Of a DNA stretch of 37,010 bases, positions 18,350 through 35,160 are shown one piece after another (within the stretch, counting starts at the first letter, position 1; each line of letters begins with the position of its first letter). The position numbers were made by a program, and so were the translations under genes. The notes under the pieces are model-generated. The model was not told the origin of the DNA. It did no database searches and saw only the letters and a list, made by a program, of their open reading frames with translations. The stretch comes from Planctomycetota bacterium. Lineage in GTDB: Bacteria > Planctomycetota > UBA8742 > JACQVU01 > JANLHZ01. The stretch lies in contig JANLHZ010000145.1 of the NCBI GenBank assembly GCA_024653775.1, forward strand, positions 1 to 37,010, read 5' to 3'.

Positions 18350-18664
18350 TCAACTCACGTCTTCGTCAGACTTCTCGGTATTCAGCACGAGGATCTTGCC
18401 GTCGCCGATGCGGCCGGTGCGGGCTTTCTTCACGATGGCGTCGGTGACGTCATTCAAACGGAAATCCTCGCAGAAAAGCTCGATACGCACCTTGGGCAGG
18501 AACGTGATCGCGTATTCGCTGCCCTGGTAGAGTTCGAGATGGCCTTTCTGCCGGCCGTAGCCGCGGACCTCGCCGAAGGTCAGGCACTCGACTTCAAGTT
18601 CGCAAAGCGCATCGAGGACGCTCTGCGCCTTGAACGGCTTGACGAATGCGATTACTTTCTTCAT
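18350..18664 (-). CDS. PII-family nitrogen regulatory protein, C-terminally short
   Basis: The 104-residue product has the PII core: MKKVIAFVKPFK at the start, the T-loop GYGRQKGHLELYQGSEY with Tyr51 (the uridylylation position in GlnB), FLPKVRIELF, and the ATP-site RTGRIGDGK (82-90). PII proteins sense ATP/ADP and 2-oxoglutarate and act on glutamine synthetase regulation, AmtB or metabolic enzymes. The normal C-terminal IRTGE arginines are absent; after residue 92 it ends in an acidic tail, so ligand binding may differ. It lies downstream of fliF, and the gap is entirely heptamer repeat. No ribosome binding site is visible. glnA lies about 3 kb away. Confidence 0.88.
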   Translation of the reverse strand: MKKVIAFVKPFKAQSVLDALCELEVECLTFGEVRGYGRQKGHLELYQGSEYAITFLPKVRIELFCEDFRLNDVTDAIVKKARTGRIGDGKILVLNTEKSDEDVS

Positions 18665-20495: not shown

Positions 20496-21251
20496 ATGAC
20501 CGCAATCTTCGAGAGTCTTGCCGAGTATTCCGAAATCCTTGCAACCAGGGGGATTTCGACCTTCGATTCGCTTCTACGCTTCGACGAAGGCGTGGTCGTC
20601 AACAGGAACAGCCGCCGCAGCGTCCTGCGCGTCGAGACACTTGTTCCCGGCAAGAAATTTTATTTGAAGCGCTACGGAAAACCGCAATGGAAAGACCTTC
20701 CGGGACATTATCTAACGCTCGGAAGGTTTTCCGGGTACGCCCCGGTCGAAAAACTGATGGTCGAGAGTTTCAGAAGTTTCGGGTTCATAACGCCGCGGAT
20801 CGTCGCGTTCGGCGAAGACCGCGGGAAATCGCTGCTTCTGCTCGAAGGGCTCGAGCCACGGGTGAGTCTTGACGATTACATCGCGCGGTACTCGCCGGAC
20901 GAACCGACGCTTACCGAAATCGCCCGGCAACTCGCGAATCTCGTCGCGGGCGTGCATTCCCGCGGCGCGTGCTATCCTGACCTCAAAATACAGCACATTT
21001 TTATCGATCCGGACGATCCGCGCGGGAAAATAGCCTGTATCGATCACCATCGTTCGAGGCTGTATTCAAGCCCGAAACGACGAATCAAGGACCTCTCGGC
21101 GCTGCTGAAATCCGCGCCTCGGGTGCCACTCAAAACGAAGCTGACGTTCCTTCGGACGTACGTTTCAAGACGACTGCCATACTCCCGCGGGATCGAACTG
21201 CGGAAACTCGCGGATCAGCCCGCGCTGGCGAAAATGATCCTCCGCGGCTGA
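20496..21251 (+). CDS. LPS-core kinase (WaaP/InaA/Kdo kinase family)
   Basis: The 251-residue product has the protein-kinase-like fold of lipopolysaccharide kinases. Lys58 (FYLKRYG) and Glu90 are candidate nucleotide contacts. CYPDLKIQHIFI (159-170) holds the catalytic Asp162, with His where most kinases have Asn. CIDHHR (181-186, Asp183) is the metal-binding DFG equivalent. Family members phosphorylate heptose or Kdo in the LPS core on the cytoplasmic side. The start at ATG 20496 has no good ribosome site. It is divergent from fliF with a 147-bp gap, and together with LpxH it supports an LPS-making cell. Confidence 0.85.
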   Translation: MTAIFESLAEYSEILATRGISTFDSLLRFDEGVVVNRNSRRSVLRVETLVPGKKFYLKRYGKPQWKDLPGHYLTLGRFSGYAPVEKLMVESFRSFGFITPRIVAFGEDRGKSLLLLEGLEPRVSLDDYIARYSPDEPTLTEIARQLANLVAGVHSRGACYPDLKIQHIFIDPDDPRGKIACIDHHRSRLYSSPKRRIKDLSALLKSAPRVPLKTKLTFLRTYVSRRLPYSRGIELRKLADQPALAKMILRG

Positions 21252-21274
21252 AGCATCGAGTTTCAATCAAGTCC

Positions 21275-21302
21275 CCACTAACCACTAACCACCAACCACT
21301 AA
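21275..21302. repeat. Heptanucleotide tract CCACTAA x4
   Basis: Four 7-mers: CCACTAA, CCACTAA, CCACCAA, CCACTAA. They lie in the gap between the LPS kinase gene and glnA, in the possible glnA leader or promoter region. Confidence 0.85.
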
Positions 21303-21432
21303 ACTACTGCTCAACCGTGATTTACGTTCCGTCCCGGACATCCCGACTAAATTCTAAAATTCTGAATTGTTTGTTGCAGTAGCGGGCGCGAATTTCTAAT
21401 TTTGCGGTTCAGTAAGAAGAAAAAGGGGCGCG

Positions 21433-21488
21433 AAGCCTGTTTTTTTTTTTCGACTGAATCAGTCGGAGAAGAAAAACGGGCTTTTTTT
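21433..21488 (+). terminator. Intrinsic terminator/attenuator just upstream of glnA
   Basis: AAGCCTGTTTTT (21433-21444) pairs with AAAAACGGGCTT (21472-21483) over 12 bp with one G-U wobble. It encloses a second perfect hairpin, CGACTG/CAGTCG (21451-21465), and is followed by TTTTTTT. It ends 24 bp before the glnA ATG, leaving no room for a promoter downstream. It is therefore either a regulated attenuator in the glnA leader or requires read-through. Confidence 0.8.
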
Positions 21489-21511
21489 AATTACACGAAA
21501 GTGGGGAGAAA

Positions 21512-22930
21512 ATGAAATCACCGCAGGAAGTCCTTGGTTTGATCCGCGAAAAGAACGTCGTTATGGTGGACCTTCGGTTCACCGACTTTCTCGGACGCTG
21601 GCATCACTTTTCAGTCCCGAGTCACTTTCTGAGGCTGGAAGAGTTCGAAGAAGGACTCGGCTTCGACGGCAGTTCCCTCCGTGGCTGGCAGGCGATCAAC
21701 GAAAGCGACATGCTCGTATTCCCAGACCCGAAAACGGCGTTTCTCGACCCGTTTACCGAGCATCCGACCCTCATCCTGATCTGCGACATCCGCGATCCGA
21801 TCTCCGGCGCAAGCTACAATAAAGACCCGCGCACCATCGCGCAGAAGGCGGTCAACTACCTCAAAAGTACCGGAATCGGCGATGTCGCGTACTTCGGACC
21901 GGAGGCAGAGTTCTTCGTCTTCGACGACGTGCGTTTTGCACAGAACGCCCACGAGGGCTATTACCACCTCGATTCCGTCGAAGGCTGCTGGAACACCGGA
22001 CGCGTCGAGCAGGGCGGAAACCTCAGCTACAAACCTAGGCACAAGGAAGGCTACTTCCCGACCCAGCCGACCGACACCCTTCAGGACCTGCGCTCGGAAA
22101 TGTCCATCGAGCTTGAGAACGCGGGAATCGAAGTCGAGCGGCAGCACCACGAAGTCGCGACCGCCGGACAATGCGAAATCGACATTAAGTATGATTCTCT
22201 CGTCGCGATGGCCGACAAGCTGATGAAGTTCAAATACATCGTCAGAAACGTCGCGCACCGCCGCGGGAAGGTCGTCACGTTCATGCCGAAGCCGCTGTAT
22301 GGCGATAACGGCAGCGGAATGCACACGCACTTCTCGATCTGGAAAAACGGCAAAAACAACTTCTTCGGCGACAAATACGCCGGATTCTCCCAGGAAGGCC
22401 TTTACGCCATAGGCGGAGTGCTTCAGAAGGCGCACGCGCTGATCGCGCTGTCGAATCCCTCGACGAACAGCTATAAGCGCCTCGTTCCGGGTTATGAGGC
22501 TCCGGTTCGCCTCGCGTATTCGAGCCGTAATCGCAGCGCGGCGATACGCATCCCGATGTATTCGAATTCCGAAGGCGCGAAACGTTTCGAGTTCCGCACG
22601 CCGGATTCGACCAGCAATCCGTACATCTTCTTCGCGGCGCTGACGATGGCCGCAATCCACGGGATCAAGAACAAGGTCGATCCGGGCACGCCGCTCGACA
22701 AGGACATCTACGGCCTTTCGCCTGAGGAACTGAAGGACGTGCCGAGCACGCCCAGAAGCTTCGAGGACGCGCTCGACGCGCTCGAGCATGACCATTCATG
22801 GCTCCTCCACGGCGACGTGTTCACGAAAGAGGTCATCGAAACCTGGATTCAGTACAAACGCATCCACGAGGTCGACGCGGTCAAGCTCCGCCCGCACCCC
22901 CACGAGTTCGAGCTTTATATCGACGCGTAA
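21512..22930 (+). CDS. glnA: Glutamine synthetase type I
   Basis: GlnA condenses ammonia with glutamate using ATP and is the main entry point of nitrogen assimilation. The 472-residue product has the usual GSI length. Motifs include [10 protein letters not shown] (50-59), [10 protein letters not shown] with metal ligands Glu131/Glu133, [10 protein letters not shown] (His271 region), [17 protein letters not shown] (315-331) and NRSAAIRIP. Tyr400 in [10 protein letters not shown] sits at the adenylylation position of the GSI-beta type, so GlnE-type control is possible. GGGGAG lies four to five bases before the ATG. Upstream is a leader with a terminator-like hairpin; downstream are palindromes and a strong terminator. 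A PII-like gene lies about 3 kb upstream on the other strand. Confidence 0.97.
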
Positions 22931-22988: not shown

Positions 22989-23626
22989 AAATTTCGAAAG
23001 CAAAAATAGCAAAGGGCGGGTTTCGATCCGCCCTTTTTGTTTTCGAACTTAGCTCTCGTTCTCATAATGTGAGTTACTGTCTCCTTGGAGAGAACTGCCA
23101 ACCGGAAATACATGAGCCATTTTAGCAACCGTTCCATTGCTATTTCTCTGCGCTCCACATTTGCATATTCACAAACTATAAATTTATTTGCTCCCTCAAC
23201 GAATGACTCAGCTAAAGCCTTTATCGACACCATTACCAAGCTGGTGCTAATTGATGGATCGTACCGAACTTCGGGGATTGAGTGGTCAGTATAACCGATT
23301 AAGCGTACGGGATTTTCTTTTCTTCGAGACTTACTTGATTCAGGACCAAAACTGTGAAGCATTCCGCATCTAGCTCCCCACAATTCTTCCCCTGTTACTT
23401 GTTCATTGCATTTGAATTTTATGTATCGATCCACCCAAGAGATAAAGTCTTCTGATTTGACTTCTGTTCTATTTTCAGGCATCGCAATATACGCCATTGT
23501 ATCGATGCCTGAATAAATCAATATTACCGCTGACCCGAAGCATTCGTTCTCAATCGCAACTTTTATTCCACGAATGATACCGTTCTGGACTACGTTGTAT
23601 ACAGGTTCATTTGATAGGGAAGTCAT
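22964..23626 (-). CDS. Hypothetical protein with HEPN-like RxxxxH motif
   Basis: The 220-residue product starts at an ATG with GGAGG six bases upstream. The pattern SAVILIYSGIDTMAYIA...DFISWVDRYI...ELWGARCGMLHSFGPESSKSRR recalls a widespread small family of unknown function. ARCGMLH contains R-x4-H, the catalytic motif of HEPN RNases, and the preceding helices fit, but HEPN membership is inference. Codon use is AT-rich relative to the neighbours. The last about 25 residues are read from the glnA terminator and palindromes, so the original 3' end has probably been lost. There is no partner antitoxin or MNT gene adjacent; the gap upstream (23627-23888) shows no gene. Confidence 0.72.
   Translation of the reverse strand: MTSLSNEPVYNVVQNGIIRGIKVAIENECFGSAVILIYSGIDTMAYIAMPENRTEVKSEDFISWVDRYIKFKCNEQVTGEELWGARCGMLHSFGPESSKSRRKENPVRLIGYTDHSIPEVRYDPSISTSLVMVSIKALAESFVEGANKFIVCEYANVERREIAMERLLKWLMYFRLAVLSKETVTHIMRTRAKFENKKGGSKPALCYFCFRNLFIGRDVR
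23011..23038 (+). terminator. Intrinsic terminator of glnA
   Basis: AAAGGGCGG (23011-23019) pairs perfectly with CCGCCCTTT (23028-23036), followed by T-rich TTGTTTT. It lies inside the 3' end of the minus-strand gene and is symmetrical enough to act in both directions. Confidence 0.85.
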
Positions 23627-28476: not shown

Positions 28477-30600
28477 TTACCACGGAATCAGCAGTTCCAG
28501 GAATTCCGGACTCGACATTATCTCGGACACGCGTTCGAAATCCTGGTAGATCGCGCGGTCACGAGACAGCCGCTCGACGCCGCTCGAGCCGAGCAGGCTT
28601 ACGACTTTCCGGATCGCGTTTCCCGGCTGGAGCGGCTGGCGGTACTTCAGTCCCTGATACGCGCAGAGCAGCTCGATAGAAACTATGTCTCGGACGTTTC
28701 CGAGAACCTCGCGCATCTTTCTCGCGCTGATAGTGCCCATGCTGACGTGATCCTCCGTGCCCGCGCAGGTAGGAATGGAATCCACGCTCGCAGGGTGGCA
28801 GAGGATCTTGTTTTCGGACGCGAGCGCCGCGGCGGTGTACTGCGCGATCATAAAGCCGCTGTTCAGGCCGCTCGATTCGATCAGAAACGGAGGAAGCCCG
28901 CGACTGTGGTTTTCATCCACGAGGTGCGCGATCCTTCGCTCGGAAATGTTGCCCGCCTCGGAAATCGCGATCGCGAGATAGTCAAGCCCGATCGCCAGCG
29001 GCTCGCCGTGGAAGTTGCCGCCGCCGATGATGGACCCGGAAAGCGCGTCCGGATTTCCTCGCAGGAATTTACGGTACTCGTCGTCGGAAGCCCCGCGGGG
29101 CGCTTCAGGCGGAAAGATCAGCGGATTGTCGGTCGCGGAGTTGATCTCGACCTGCACAACGTCCCGAACGTGTTCGAGCGCGCGGAACGAGCACGAAATC
29201 ACCTGCGGAAAGCATCTGAAGCTGTAGTCGTCCTGCACGATCGGCGAGTCCGGCACGGCTTCGTTCAGTTGATCGAGTGCCGCGATCACGCTGGTCCGAA
29301 CCTTGTTCGTCCGCGCGAATTCCGCGGCTTCGAGATTTTCGAGCGCGCGCAGGGTTTCGATCGCGCGCTTTCTTATCGGGCTGAGTTTCTGGTCGAAAAA
29401 TTCGATCTGCTCCCGGGCAGGCTTACTCGAAAGAAGCGCGATGAATTCGTCGTCGAGAGCATTTTTCTTCGTACGCGGATACACGCCGACGACCTCGTTC
29501 TCGAGTTCGACGAGCTTTCCGCGAATGGCCTCGAAACTTTGCGGCGCGGAGCCTCCGGAAAGCTCGATCTGCCTCGAAGACTCCAGAAGATGCTCCCGCG
29601 CCTCGGCGAGATGAATCCTCGCACGGTAGACGTTCGCGGAATTCAGGTACAGGTCAACGATCTGCGAGCCTTCGATATACCGCTCGATGCTCCGCGCAAC
29701 TTCGGGCTGGAAGCTCTGAGGGCGAACGAGGTGCAGACGTTCGTCGAAGGCGTCGCGAATGCCGCGGATGGCTTCGAGACTCATCGCGCCGGCGAGTTCC
29801 GCGGTTCGCATAAGCTGCTCCGCGTCGTGGAGCGACAGACATCCGATCGCGGCCATGAACTGGGTTCCGTTGTTGAGCGCAAGCCCTTCCTTCGCCGCGA
29901 GGGTAACTGGCGCGAACGTCCAGCCTTCGCGATTGGCGACCTCCCTGAACTCGCGCCCTGCCGGCATCGGCACGAACGCTTCCGAAGGCGGCTTCAACAC
30001 CACCGGGAACGCGGACGCTTCGCCCGCTACGGTGCGAGAACCTGCGGGCACGGACTTCCTCGACTCCCGCGGATAGAACTTCCCCGAAGGATCGCATATC
30101 AGGACGAGTGAAAGGTGCGAAAGCGGCGCGAGGTCTCCGCTCGCTCCGACGGAACCCTTGCTCGGGACGTAAGGATATACGTCGTCGTTAAGCATGGTCA
30201 CGAGGGATTCGATCACCTCGAGACGAATTCCGGAGTTGCCCTTGCAAAGCGTGTTCGCGCGGAGCAGCATCGCGGCCCGGACGACGTCCTCGTCGAAAGG
30301 TCTCCCCGTCCCCGCAGCGTGGCTGCGAAGAAGGTTCACCTGCAAATCCGCGGCATCCTCCGGCTCGATCGCGACGTCCCGCAGCTTACCGAATCCGGTC
30401 GTCAGCCCGTAGACCTTCTCTCTTCGTTCGAGCAGTGCCTCGACAACCATCCTGCACCTTCGGATTCGACTTTTCGCGCTGTCCGCGACTTTCACCCGCA
30501 CGCGATTCCTCGCTACGCGGACAACGTCCTCGATCGACAACGACTCGCCGTCGATGCAGAGGAAATCCACGTCATTCGATTTTCGAACTATCTTCTTCAT
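28477..30600 (-). CDS. hutH: Histidine ammonia-lyase with two insertions
   Basis: HutH converts histidine to urocanate. The 707-residue product has the catalytic YGLTTGFG (64-71), the MIO-forming ASG (153-155, in GSVGASGDLAPLSH), TLAAKEGLALNNGTQ, NPLIF, GGGNFHGEP, SERRIAHLVD, and TEDHVSMG (Glu that separates HAL from PAL). RSHAAG has the His of HAL specificity. Normal HutH is about 510 residues. Here about 39 extra residues lie in 161-232 and about 125 in about 316-452, before VQDDYSFRCFPQV. Plant PAL is long too, but its insertion is elsewhere. GGGGACGG upstream is a weak ribosome site. There are no other hut genes within the window. Confidence 0.9.
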   Translation of the reverse strand: MKKIVRKSNDVDFLCIDGESLSIEDVVRVARNRVRVKVADSAKSRIRRCRMVVEALLERREKVYGLTTGFGKLRDVAIEPEDAADLQVNLLRSHAAGTGRPFDEDVVRAAMLLRANTLCKGNSGIRLEVIESLVTMLNDDVYPYVPSKGSVGASGDLAPLSHLSLVLICDPSGKFYPRESRKSVPAGSRTVAGEASAFPVVLKPPSEAFVPMPAGREFREVANREGWTFAPVTLAAKEGLALNNGTQFMAAIGCLSLHDAEQLMRTAELAGAMSLEAIRGIRDAFDERLHLVRPQSFQPEVARSIERYIEGSQIVDLYLNSANVYRARIHLAEAREHLLESSRQIELSGGSAPQSFEAIRGKLVELENEVVGVYPRTKKNALDDEFIALLSSKPAREQIEFFDQKLSPIRKRAIETLRALENLEAAEFARTNKVRTSVIAALDQLNEAVPDSPIVQDDYSFRCFPQVISCSFRALEHVRDVVQVEINSATDNPLIFPPEAPRGASDDEYRKFLRGNPDALSGSIIGGGNFHGEPLAIGLDYLAIAISEAGNISERRIAHLVDENHSRGLPPFLIESSGLNSGFMIAQYTAAALASENKILCHPASVDSIPTCAGTEDHVSMGTISARKMREVLGNVRDIVSIELLCAYQGLKYRQPLQPGNAIRKVVSLLGSSGVERLSRDRAIYQDFERVSEIMSSPEFLELLIPW

Positions 30601-31560: not shown

Positions 31561-34500
31561 TCAGGTGCGATGGTGATCCTGCAGCGGAACCACTTCGAGG
31601 GTTTCGTCGCGCATCGCGCGGATTCCGACCAGCGCGGCCTGCGCGGCTTTCATCGTCGAAAGCAGCGGAACGCCGTGGACGTAGGCCGCGCGGCGGATGC
31701 GCTTTTCGTCCTTCCTCGACTGCTTGCCTGCGGGAGTGTTGATCAGCAGCGAAATCTCGCCGTCCATGATGCGGTCGATGACGTTCCTCCGAAGGCCGCT
31801 CGTGATCTTCGGGATCTCCTCGACTTCGACCCCGCTGCGGCGGAGGACTTTGGCGGTGCCCGTTGTCGCGATGACGCGCATTCCGAGGTCCGCGATCCCA
31901 CGGGCGATGTCGATAACCGCGCGCTTGTCGCGATCGCAGACGCTGATGAACGCGCTTCCCGACGTTGGAAGCGGCGTGCCCGCGCTCATATACGCCTTCG
32001 CGAGGGCGTTTCCGAAAGTCTTCGAAATCCCCATCACTTCGCCCGTAGAGCGCATTTCAGGCCCGAGCAGCACGTCAGTACCAGGCAGTTTCGCGAACGG
32101 AAACACCGGAGCCTTCACCGACACGTGTTTCGGCGTCGCGATCTTCGTCATTCCCTGCTCGCGAAGCGAAACGCCCATCATCACTTTCGTCGCGATCTTC
32201 GCAAGTGAAACGCCGATCGCCTTCGAAACGAACGGCACCGTCCGACTCGCGCGTGGATTCACCTCGAGCACGAAAACCTGCTCGTCCTTCACCGCGAACT
32301 GAATATTCATAAGGCCGCGGACGCTGAGCGCCTTCGCAAGACGGTGGGTCGCGTCCTCGATCGCTGAGATGATCTTTGCGGGAAGCGTCATCGGCGGAAG
32401 CACGCAGGTCGAATCCCCGGAATGGATTCCAGCCTCCTCGATGTGCTCCATAATTCCGCCGATGAGGACGTCGGTATCGTCGCACACGGCGTCGACGTCG
32501 ACTTCGACCGCTTCCTCCAGGTACTTGTCGATCAGAATCGGCTCGCCTTCCCCGATGCGCACGGCGGCGGTGGCGTACTGTCTGAGCTGGTGCACGTCGT
32601 CAACGACCATCATCGCGCGGCCTCCGAGAACGAAGCTCGGACGGACGAGAACCGGATACCCGATCTTGTGGGCCTGATCGATCGCGCCTTCCACCGTGGT
32701 CGCGGTGCCTCCTTCCGGCGAACGCAGTCCGAGGGCTTTGATTATGTCGCCGAAGAGTTCGCGATTCTCCGCGAGGTGGATGCTGCTGACGCTCGTCCCG
32801 ATGATCGGAATCCCGGCGTTATCGAGGCCGCGGGCGAGGTTGAGCGGCGTCTGCCCCCCGAACTGGACGATGCAGCCCTTCAGATTCCCCGCCGAACGAT
32901 CCTTCTTCTCTGGCCTTCGATCGCAGATCAGCGCGAGCGCGTCGTCGATCTGCGATCTTTCGAGTCCGGTGAGTTCTTCGAGCAACGCGGACGTTCGACC
33001 ATCGGAGAGCAGGTAGAACACCTTGCGATCCGGGAAGCTCCTCAGCGCGCGATGCTCAAAAACGCGGATCATCTTGCGTTCGTCGATAGTGAACGCGAGG
33101 CGTGAGGCTTTGAACTCGCGGACGAACGCTATAGCGAAACTCTCCGCGTCCGTCTGCTTTACGCGCCGCGAGAGTTCGTCGAGTTCCCTCTTGCTGAATA
33201 GTTCCGCCCAGCCGCCTTCGTCCGGAGCCGCGAGCTTCGCGTATGGTCGGTTCCTTCCGCTGACGCACTCCGCTACCGCGCGGACGTCCTCGAAAGTCAG
33301 CGGCTCGAAGAACAGATGATCGCTGGTGTCGTAGTCGGTAGAGACGGTTTCCGGGTTCGAGTTCACCATCACGCTTTCATAACCGAGTTCGCGGATGGCG
33401 AAGCTTCCGTGAACGCAGCAGTAGTCGAACTCGATCCCCTGGCCGATGCGATTCGGACCGCCTCCGATGATCATTATCTTCGGCTTGTCGCCAAGATCGG
33501 CTTCCGTCTCCTTTTCGTAGGACGAGTAGTAGTAAGGCGTGAACGCCTCGAACTCGCCCGCGCAGGTATCGACGAGCTTGAACGCGGGACGAATCCCGAA
33601 ACCTTCGCGTAGCTCCACGATTTCCTTCTGCGTCGTTTCGAAAAGCCACGCGAGCTGACGATCGCTGAACCCCTGGCGCTTGGATTCGAAAAGCAGCTCT
33701 GGAGTCAGTTTCGAGATATCGCCTTCGAGCGCGCTCAGTTTCTTCTCGTGATCGATGATTTCCTTGATGTGTCTTATGAACCACGGATCGATTTCCGTGA
33801 GATTCCGGATTTCTTCGAAGTCGAATCCCGCGAGGAACGCCTGGCGAATAAAGAAAAGCCGCGTAGCGCCGGGCACGCGAAGTTTCCGTCGGATCTCCTC
33901 CAAATCCGCCTCCTCCTCGTTGGCGCCGTCCGCGCCGAGGCCGTAGCGCTGGATTTCGAGGCTGCGGATGGCTTTCTGCAGCGACTCCTTGAACGTGCGC
34001 CCGATCGCCATCGTCTCGCCGACGCTTTTCATCTGCGTGGTGAGCGCCTCGTCGGCGCCGGGGAATTTTTCGAACGCGAACCGCGGGAACTTCGTTACGA
34101 CGTAATCTATCGACGGCTCGAACACCGCTGGAGTCTTTCGCGTTATATCGTTCGCGATCTCGTCGAGGCGGTATCCGACCGCGAGTTTCGCCGCAATCTT
34201 CGCTATCGGGAATCCAGTCGCCTTGCTTGCGAGCGCGCTCGACCTCGATACCCGCGGGTTCATCTCGATTATCGTCATCCTGCCGTCCCGCGGATTCACC
34301 GCGAACTGGATGTTGCTTCCGCCCGTGTCGACTCCGATCGCGCGGATGCACCTTATCGCGGCGTCACGCATGAGCTGGTATTCCTTGTCGGTCAGCGTCT
34401 GCGCGGGAGCTACGGTGATCGAGTCTCCGGTGTGAACTCCCATCGGGTCGAGGTTCTCGATAGAGCAGATGATGACGACGTTATCCGCCTTGTCGCGCAT

Positions 34501-35160
34501 CACCTCAAGCTCGTACTCCTTCCAGCCCGAAAGGTATTCCTCGACGAGCACCTCGTTCGTGGGCGAGAGTTTGATTCCTTCCTTGCAGATGTCCTCGAAT
34601 TCGACCTTGTTGTACGCGATGCCGCCGCCGGTTCCGCCGAGGGTGTAGGACGGACGGATCACCGCGGGAAGTCCGACGAACTCGCGCGCCAATTCGACCT
34701 CCGCCTGATTGTGCGCAAGCGCGCTTTTCGGGACGTCGATCCCGACGCTGATCATCAGCTCCTTGAACATCTCGCGATTCTCCGCGCGCTCGATCGCCTC
34801 CTTGCTCGCGGCAAGCAGTTCGATGCCGAGGTCGTCGAGGACGCCTTCCCTCGCGAGCGCCATCGCGATGTTGAGCGCGGTCTGGCCGCCGAGGGTCGGG
34901 AGCAGCGCGTCGACCTTTTCCTTCTTCAGAATCTTTGCGACCATCCTCGGCGTCAGCGGCTCGATATACGTGCGATCGCTGAACCCTGGGTCGGTCATTA
35001 TCGTCGCGGGATTCGAGTTCACGAGGACGATCTCGTAGCCTTCCTCGCGAAGCGCCTTGCACGCCTGTACGCCGGAATAATCGAATTCGCATGCCTGGCC
35101 GATGATTATTGGTCCCGACCCTATGAGGCAGATTCTCTTTATGTCGTCGCGCCTTGGCAT
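31561..35160 (-). CDS. carB: Carbamoyl-phosphate synthase large subunit with insertion
   Basis: CarB makes carbamoyl phosphate for arginine and pyrimidine synthesis. The 1199-residue product has both synthetase halves: [20 protein letters not shown] (11-30), [19 protein letters not shown] and [10 protein letters not shown] in half one; [17 protein letters not shown] (564-580), [24 protein letters not shown] and SFVLGGRAM in half two; and the C-terminal MGS-like allosteric domain (about 1060-1199). Typical length is about 1070. About 125 extra residues lie between EDVRAVAE (to 631) and GCIVQFGG (from 762); this region is usually only a short linker. The ATG start has no strong ribosome site. 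No carA is in the window. Confidence 0.95.

Follow-up and report, generated by a model that had tools for sequence, protein, structure and literature searches.

A probable transcription attenuator with an antiterminator-like competitor in the glnA leader of a planctomycete

Results

The glnA leader contains an unusually stable terminator

The window, the whole 37,010-nucleotide stretch of Planctomycetota DNA analyzed here, carries in the 5' leader of glnA an intrinsic terminator (21432-21488, +) that is overlapped by an antiterminator-like hairpin, and the two together probably constitute a transcription attenuator. The gene itself (21512-22930, +) encodes a type I glutamine synthetase (glutamate-ammonia ligase; TIGR00653, 634.9 bits; PF00120 and PF03951) and has a likely ribosome-binding site, GGGGAG (21503-21508, +), 3 nt before its ATG. 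Upstream on the same strand lies a gene with a Kdo/WaaP-type lipopolysaccharide kinase domain (20496-21251, +; Pfam PF06293, E 1.4e-17).

The terminator stem pairs residues 21432-21456 with 21460-21484 in 25 uninterrupted base pairs closed by an AAU loop (-33.7 kcal/mol; z of -6.87 relative to 200 dinucleotide shuffles), and the immediate T7 tract (21482-21488) ends 23 bases 5' of the glnA ATG, so that a stable hairpin and its T tract stand together on the glnA strand as in an intrinsic terminator. An earlier note on this DNA had described a 12-bp stem, a nested hairpin and T7; the terminator and the T tract hold, whereas the anatomy is that of one continuous and stronger 25-bp stem. As a background for this element, a further ~1.03 Mb from this genome was combined with the window (1.07 Mb in all), genes were called by codon bias and one strict hairpin plus T-run rule was applied, giving 52 intergenic terminator-like sites. 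The glnA-leader hairpin ranks first in stability among these sites, is present as a single copy in the genome, and is near-unique in its placement in the 1.07 Mb, lying 181 nt past the kinase stop codon and 27 nt ahead of a co-directional start. Including this hairpin, 4 of the 52 sites are found within 60 nt 5' of a co-directional start; one of the other three follows a stop codon by 26 nt and is an ordinary 3' end, and the remaining two are weak irregular hairpins.

A promoter candidate would place the start shortly before the hairpins

A sigma-70-like promoter candidate (21374-21402, +) is formed by TTGCAG (21374-21379), a 17-nt spacer and TAATTT (21397-21402), with a predicted start at about 21409. 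It is the top-scoring site of the leader (8.15) in a position-weight scan calibrated on divergent-gene upstream regions and on coding windows of the same genome, exceeding 91% of the coding windows and falling at about the 31st percentile of the divergent-gene upstream regions. These scores suggest a mediocre site of weak to average strength, and a stricter consensus scan found no promoter-like site in the leader. Given the predicted start, a terminated RNA would be about 80 nt long and most of 21303-21432 would be left untranscribed.

Past the hairpin and ahead of the ATG, the position-weight scan gave no credible promoter: the top score there was 4.1, compared with a median of 5.3 for coding sequence, and a promoter within the 23 bases following T7 was discarded on the same score. 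Since no promoter-like site lies 3' of the hairpin, the scan supports the proposal that transcripts initiated upstream must pass it.

An antiterminator-like hairpin competes for the terminator 5' arm

Residues 21414-21429 pair with 21435-21450 to form the antiterminator-like hairpin (21414-21450, +), which has 15 pairs with one mismatch, a predicted GCGAA loop and a stability of -15.3 kcal/mol. The strand 21435-21450 is common to this hairpin and to the terminator, and the two structures are mutually exclusive. The sequence AGAAGAAAAAGGGGC at 21415-21429 matches the terminator 3' arm (21467-21481) at 14 of 15 bases and can therefore pair with the terminator 5' arm; this repeat of the arm had not been mentioned in the earlier note. 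No equally good copy of the arm arose among 400 dinucleotide-shuffled leaders or among 400 random genomic 180-mers, which sets the repeat apart from chance.

When folding is followed stepwise from 21409, the 21414-21450 hairpin forms first and is replaced by the terminator at about base 21475. Scored by capture of the 5' arm by upstream sequence, the glnA terminator is the fullest of the 52 intergenic terminators; taken alone this measure is weak, because in 12 of the 52 upstream sequence can pair with 10 or more positions of the 5' arm. The competing arms of the glnA leader are, moreover, A/G- and T-rich. The terminator exceeds the competing hairpin in stability by 18 kcal/mol, and so should nearly always win in the absence of a factor.

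The remaining leader sequence

An ACCACTA-type heptamer repeat (21275-21302, +), containing a 14-nt direct repeat, occupies the upstream part of the intergenic region. It is a generic intergenic microsatellite: in either orientation such repeats occur at 4 sites in 1.07 Mb, all of them intergenic and none in genes, and the stretch is not part of a sensor. ACCACTA repeats were observed in other intergenic spaces of this genome (L112, ~1505-1535; L113, ~58-105; L114, ~1501-1522). Apart from the heptamer stretch the leader is single-copy, and a mobile or repeated element was rejected on this ground. In a long fold residues 21271-21279 (TCCCCACT) pair with the ribosome-binding-site stretch, probably by chance, because they lie 5' of the likely start and within or beside the heptamer repeat.

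Inspection of the leader by eye revealed no short ORF with a ribosome-binding site and regulatory codons, as ribosome-mediated attenuation by a leader peptide would require; the only candidates were GTG/TTG mini-ORFs lacking a ribosome-binding site, and from 21409 to the terminator there is no mini-ORF. Rfam searches of the entire window at the gathering threshold, and of the leader with E values allowed up to 10, returned chance hairpin matches only, and neither glutamine riboswitch covariance model (RF01739, RF01704) was matched. Within the limits of Rfam, and even at the permissive threshold, this bears out the statement that no known glutamine riboswitch motif is present.

A similar layout recurs at glnA in same-class relatives

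The class is represented by 20 genomes in the collection, and in the only order-mate glnA is truncated by a contig end. In one family of 16 genomes (f4), 14 glnA leaders were compared. These leaders are conserved, span ~80 nt (L013:1347-1425; L017:1347-1426; L016:1347-1429; L119:2450-2531 on the minus strand; and others) and consist, in order, of a promoter (CTTGAT-16/17-TAnnnT), a hairpin (CCCCGUAnCGGGG), a linker (CACCCGAUACA), a terminator-like hairpin (GACCCGCC..GGCGGGC), a T run and a ribosome-binding site. With terminator-like hairpins counted at up to 75 nt from the glnA start, 10 of the 14 f4 leaders carry a hairpin and T run interposed between glnA and a predicted sigma-70 promoter; as f4 members are related, the 10 do not count as independent cases. 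Outside f4 the corresponding figure is 6 of 91 glnA loci. From the -10 element to the T run the distance is 82-86 nt among the f4 leaders, a range that includes the 85 nt at the window glnA.

A covariance model built on the f4 leader (R1) gave one strong match per genome in 11 of the 16 f4 genomes, in each case at glnA. Matching no Rfam family and having a single clear copy per genome, located at glnA, this leader represents a candidate motif not described before and the more novel by-product of this analysis. The same model had no match in the genome of the window, so that homology between the two leaders was rejected: as far as the comparison reaches, they share a layout without detectable sequence likeness. 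As the f4 leader is unrelated in sequence, the likeness in layout could be convergent. An f4 antiterminator capturing the terminator arm was absent from most folds, and a consensus alternative (GUAnCGGG:CCCGnUAC) showed little covariation, with 2 double changes across the whole structure; both were set aside.

Nitrogen-regulation context and other genes of the window

A search for Sigma54_DBD detected no RpoN in the genome of the window (96% complete) or in the order-mate, where the absence carries less weight since the genome is no more than 79% complete. Controls were positive and RpoN is present in all 18 of 18 other class members, and sigma-54 has thus apparently been lost in the order of the window. 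Since RpoN was found neither here nor in the order-mate, glnA is unlikely to be under classical NtrC/sigma-54 control in this genome; a sigma-54 promoter for glnA was likewise rejected, its pattern not exceeding chance frequency. The genome encodes three P-II genes, one of which lies in the window (18350-18664, -), 2.8 kb from glnA and beside a FliF-like gene. A nitrogen response of the glnA leader is plausible from the identity of the gene.

Two further genes of the window may carry insertions. The histidine ammonia-lyase-like protein (28477-30600, -; 707 aa) has a family match split into 14-316 and 444-700, which suggests a ~128-aa insertion, and the carbamoyl-phosphate synthase large subunit (31561-35160, -; 1199 aa) has a two-part model match and exceeds the model by ~140 aa, again suggesting an insertion.

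Discussion

Proposed mechanism

In the mechanism we propose, transcription would begin at about 21409, and within the nascent ~80-nt RNA the antiterminator-like hairpin would be the first to fold. As 21467-21481 emerges, the more stable terminator could displace this first hairpin, and RNA polymerase would then halt in the T7 tract. If instead the first hairpin were kept, or the terminator 3' arm were occupied, transcription would proceed into glnA. Because the terminator is much the more stable structure, low default read-through is expected, so that glnA would be mostly off or attenuated until a protein, an RNA, pausing or some other condition favors the first hairpin and permits read-through. 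The attenuation of glnA predicted in the earlier note gains support from the position and strength of the hairpin, from its competitor and from the same layout in same-class relatives, and its regulation is what we infer from them.

Alternative explanations

The hairpin is intergenic and lies on the strand of the kinase gene, and could be the ordinary 3' terminator of that gene, with a glnA promoter overlapping or following it; a precedent for such crowding is provided by one other sampled site, 26 nt past a stop codon and 23 nt ahead of a start. We consider this quite unlikely. The clear 3' terminators among the 52 sites mostly lie ~10-85 nt past the stop codon, far short of the distance found here, the best downstream promoter score falls under the coding median, and the stem is unlike the short AAAGGGC..GCCCTTT type usual in this genome, to which the terminator 3' of glnA (23011-23036, +) belongs. 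Still less credible, and in our estimation very improbable, is a metabolite riboswitch along the lines of the earlier note, which had suggested a new sensor in 21303-21432; an aptamer would occupy this interval and the hairpin would serve as the expression platform. The anatomy of the terminator is compatible with an expression platform, and the whole leader folds better than its shuffles (z of -4.1, a value that includes the terminator hairpin). Against it, the likely promoter falls inside the supposed aptamer region, the repeat within the wider leader is generic, and there is no Rfam match; with most of 21303-21432 lying 5' of the probable start, a new sensor in this interval finds no support.

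A different possibility is that the attenuator is fixed and unregulated, reducing glnA transcription by a constant fraction without any signal, the antiterminator pairing being incidental. The large excess in stability of the terminator over its competitor would fit such an arrangement, as would the failure to find an aptamer, a leader peptide or a known antiterminator target in the leader, and a search for ANTAR-domain proteins gave 0 matches in this genome, though likewise 0 in every control genome. It is nevertheless somewhat unlikely, as the 14/15 repeat with its precisely overlapping hairpin is unexpected by chance and a fixed terminator of this strength would impose a cost when placed ahead of an essential biosynthetic gene. 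We therefore favor an attenuator whose competing hairpin contributes to control.

Implications

To our knowledge, the control of glutamine synthetase in bacteria without NtrC/sigma-54 and NtcA is poorly understood, and the leader offers a defined ~80-nt RNA on which glnA control could be tested in a planctomycete order that has apparently lost sigma-54. Extended further, the layout might reflect a class-wide planctomycete glnA attenuator in which the spacing from promoter to terminator is fixed and the leader is lineage-specific, and which in the sigma-54-less order would be the main nitrogen control, acting via an undescribed factor or RNA; this extension is speculative and we regard it as unlikely.

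Comparison with known systems

The glutamine riboswitches, glnA RNA (RF01739) and Downstream-peptide RNA (RF01704), are cyanobacterial (PMC2864571, PMC6316151) and have been described as restricted to cyanobacteria (PMC6316151). The window leader resembles them in being a cis-acting leader before a nitrogen-assimilation gene, and differs in that it matches no Rfam family and shows no multi-stem aptamer in its predicted ~80 nt. With generic three-segment attenuators it shares two mutually exclusive hairpins that have one strand in common, the second being the terminator, but it differs from these in that neither a leader peptide preceded by a ribosome-binding site nor a known effector site was recognized in it.

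ANTAR targets are composed of two hairpins with hexanucleotide loops, of which the second overlaps the terminator. The predicted folds of the window leader do not form this structure, their AAU and GCGAA loops setting them apart. ANTAR targets also occur near glutamine synthetase genes (PMC3369936), and glnA of Clostridium saccharobutylicum is described as controlled by antitermination through the ANTAR protein NitR (PMC6316151). As in that system, read-through of a leader terminator would set glnA expression and an alternative RNA structure could prevent termination. The principle of antitermination in a glnA leader is thus already known from NitR/ANTAR, and by this analogy the window leader appears to be another instance of it.
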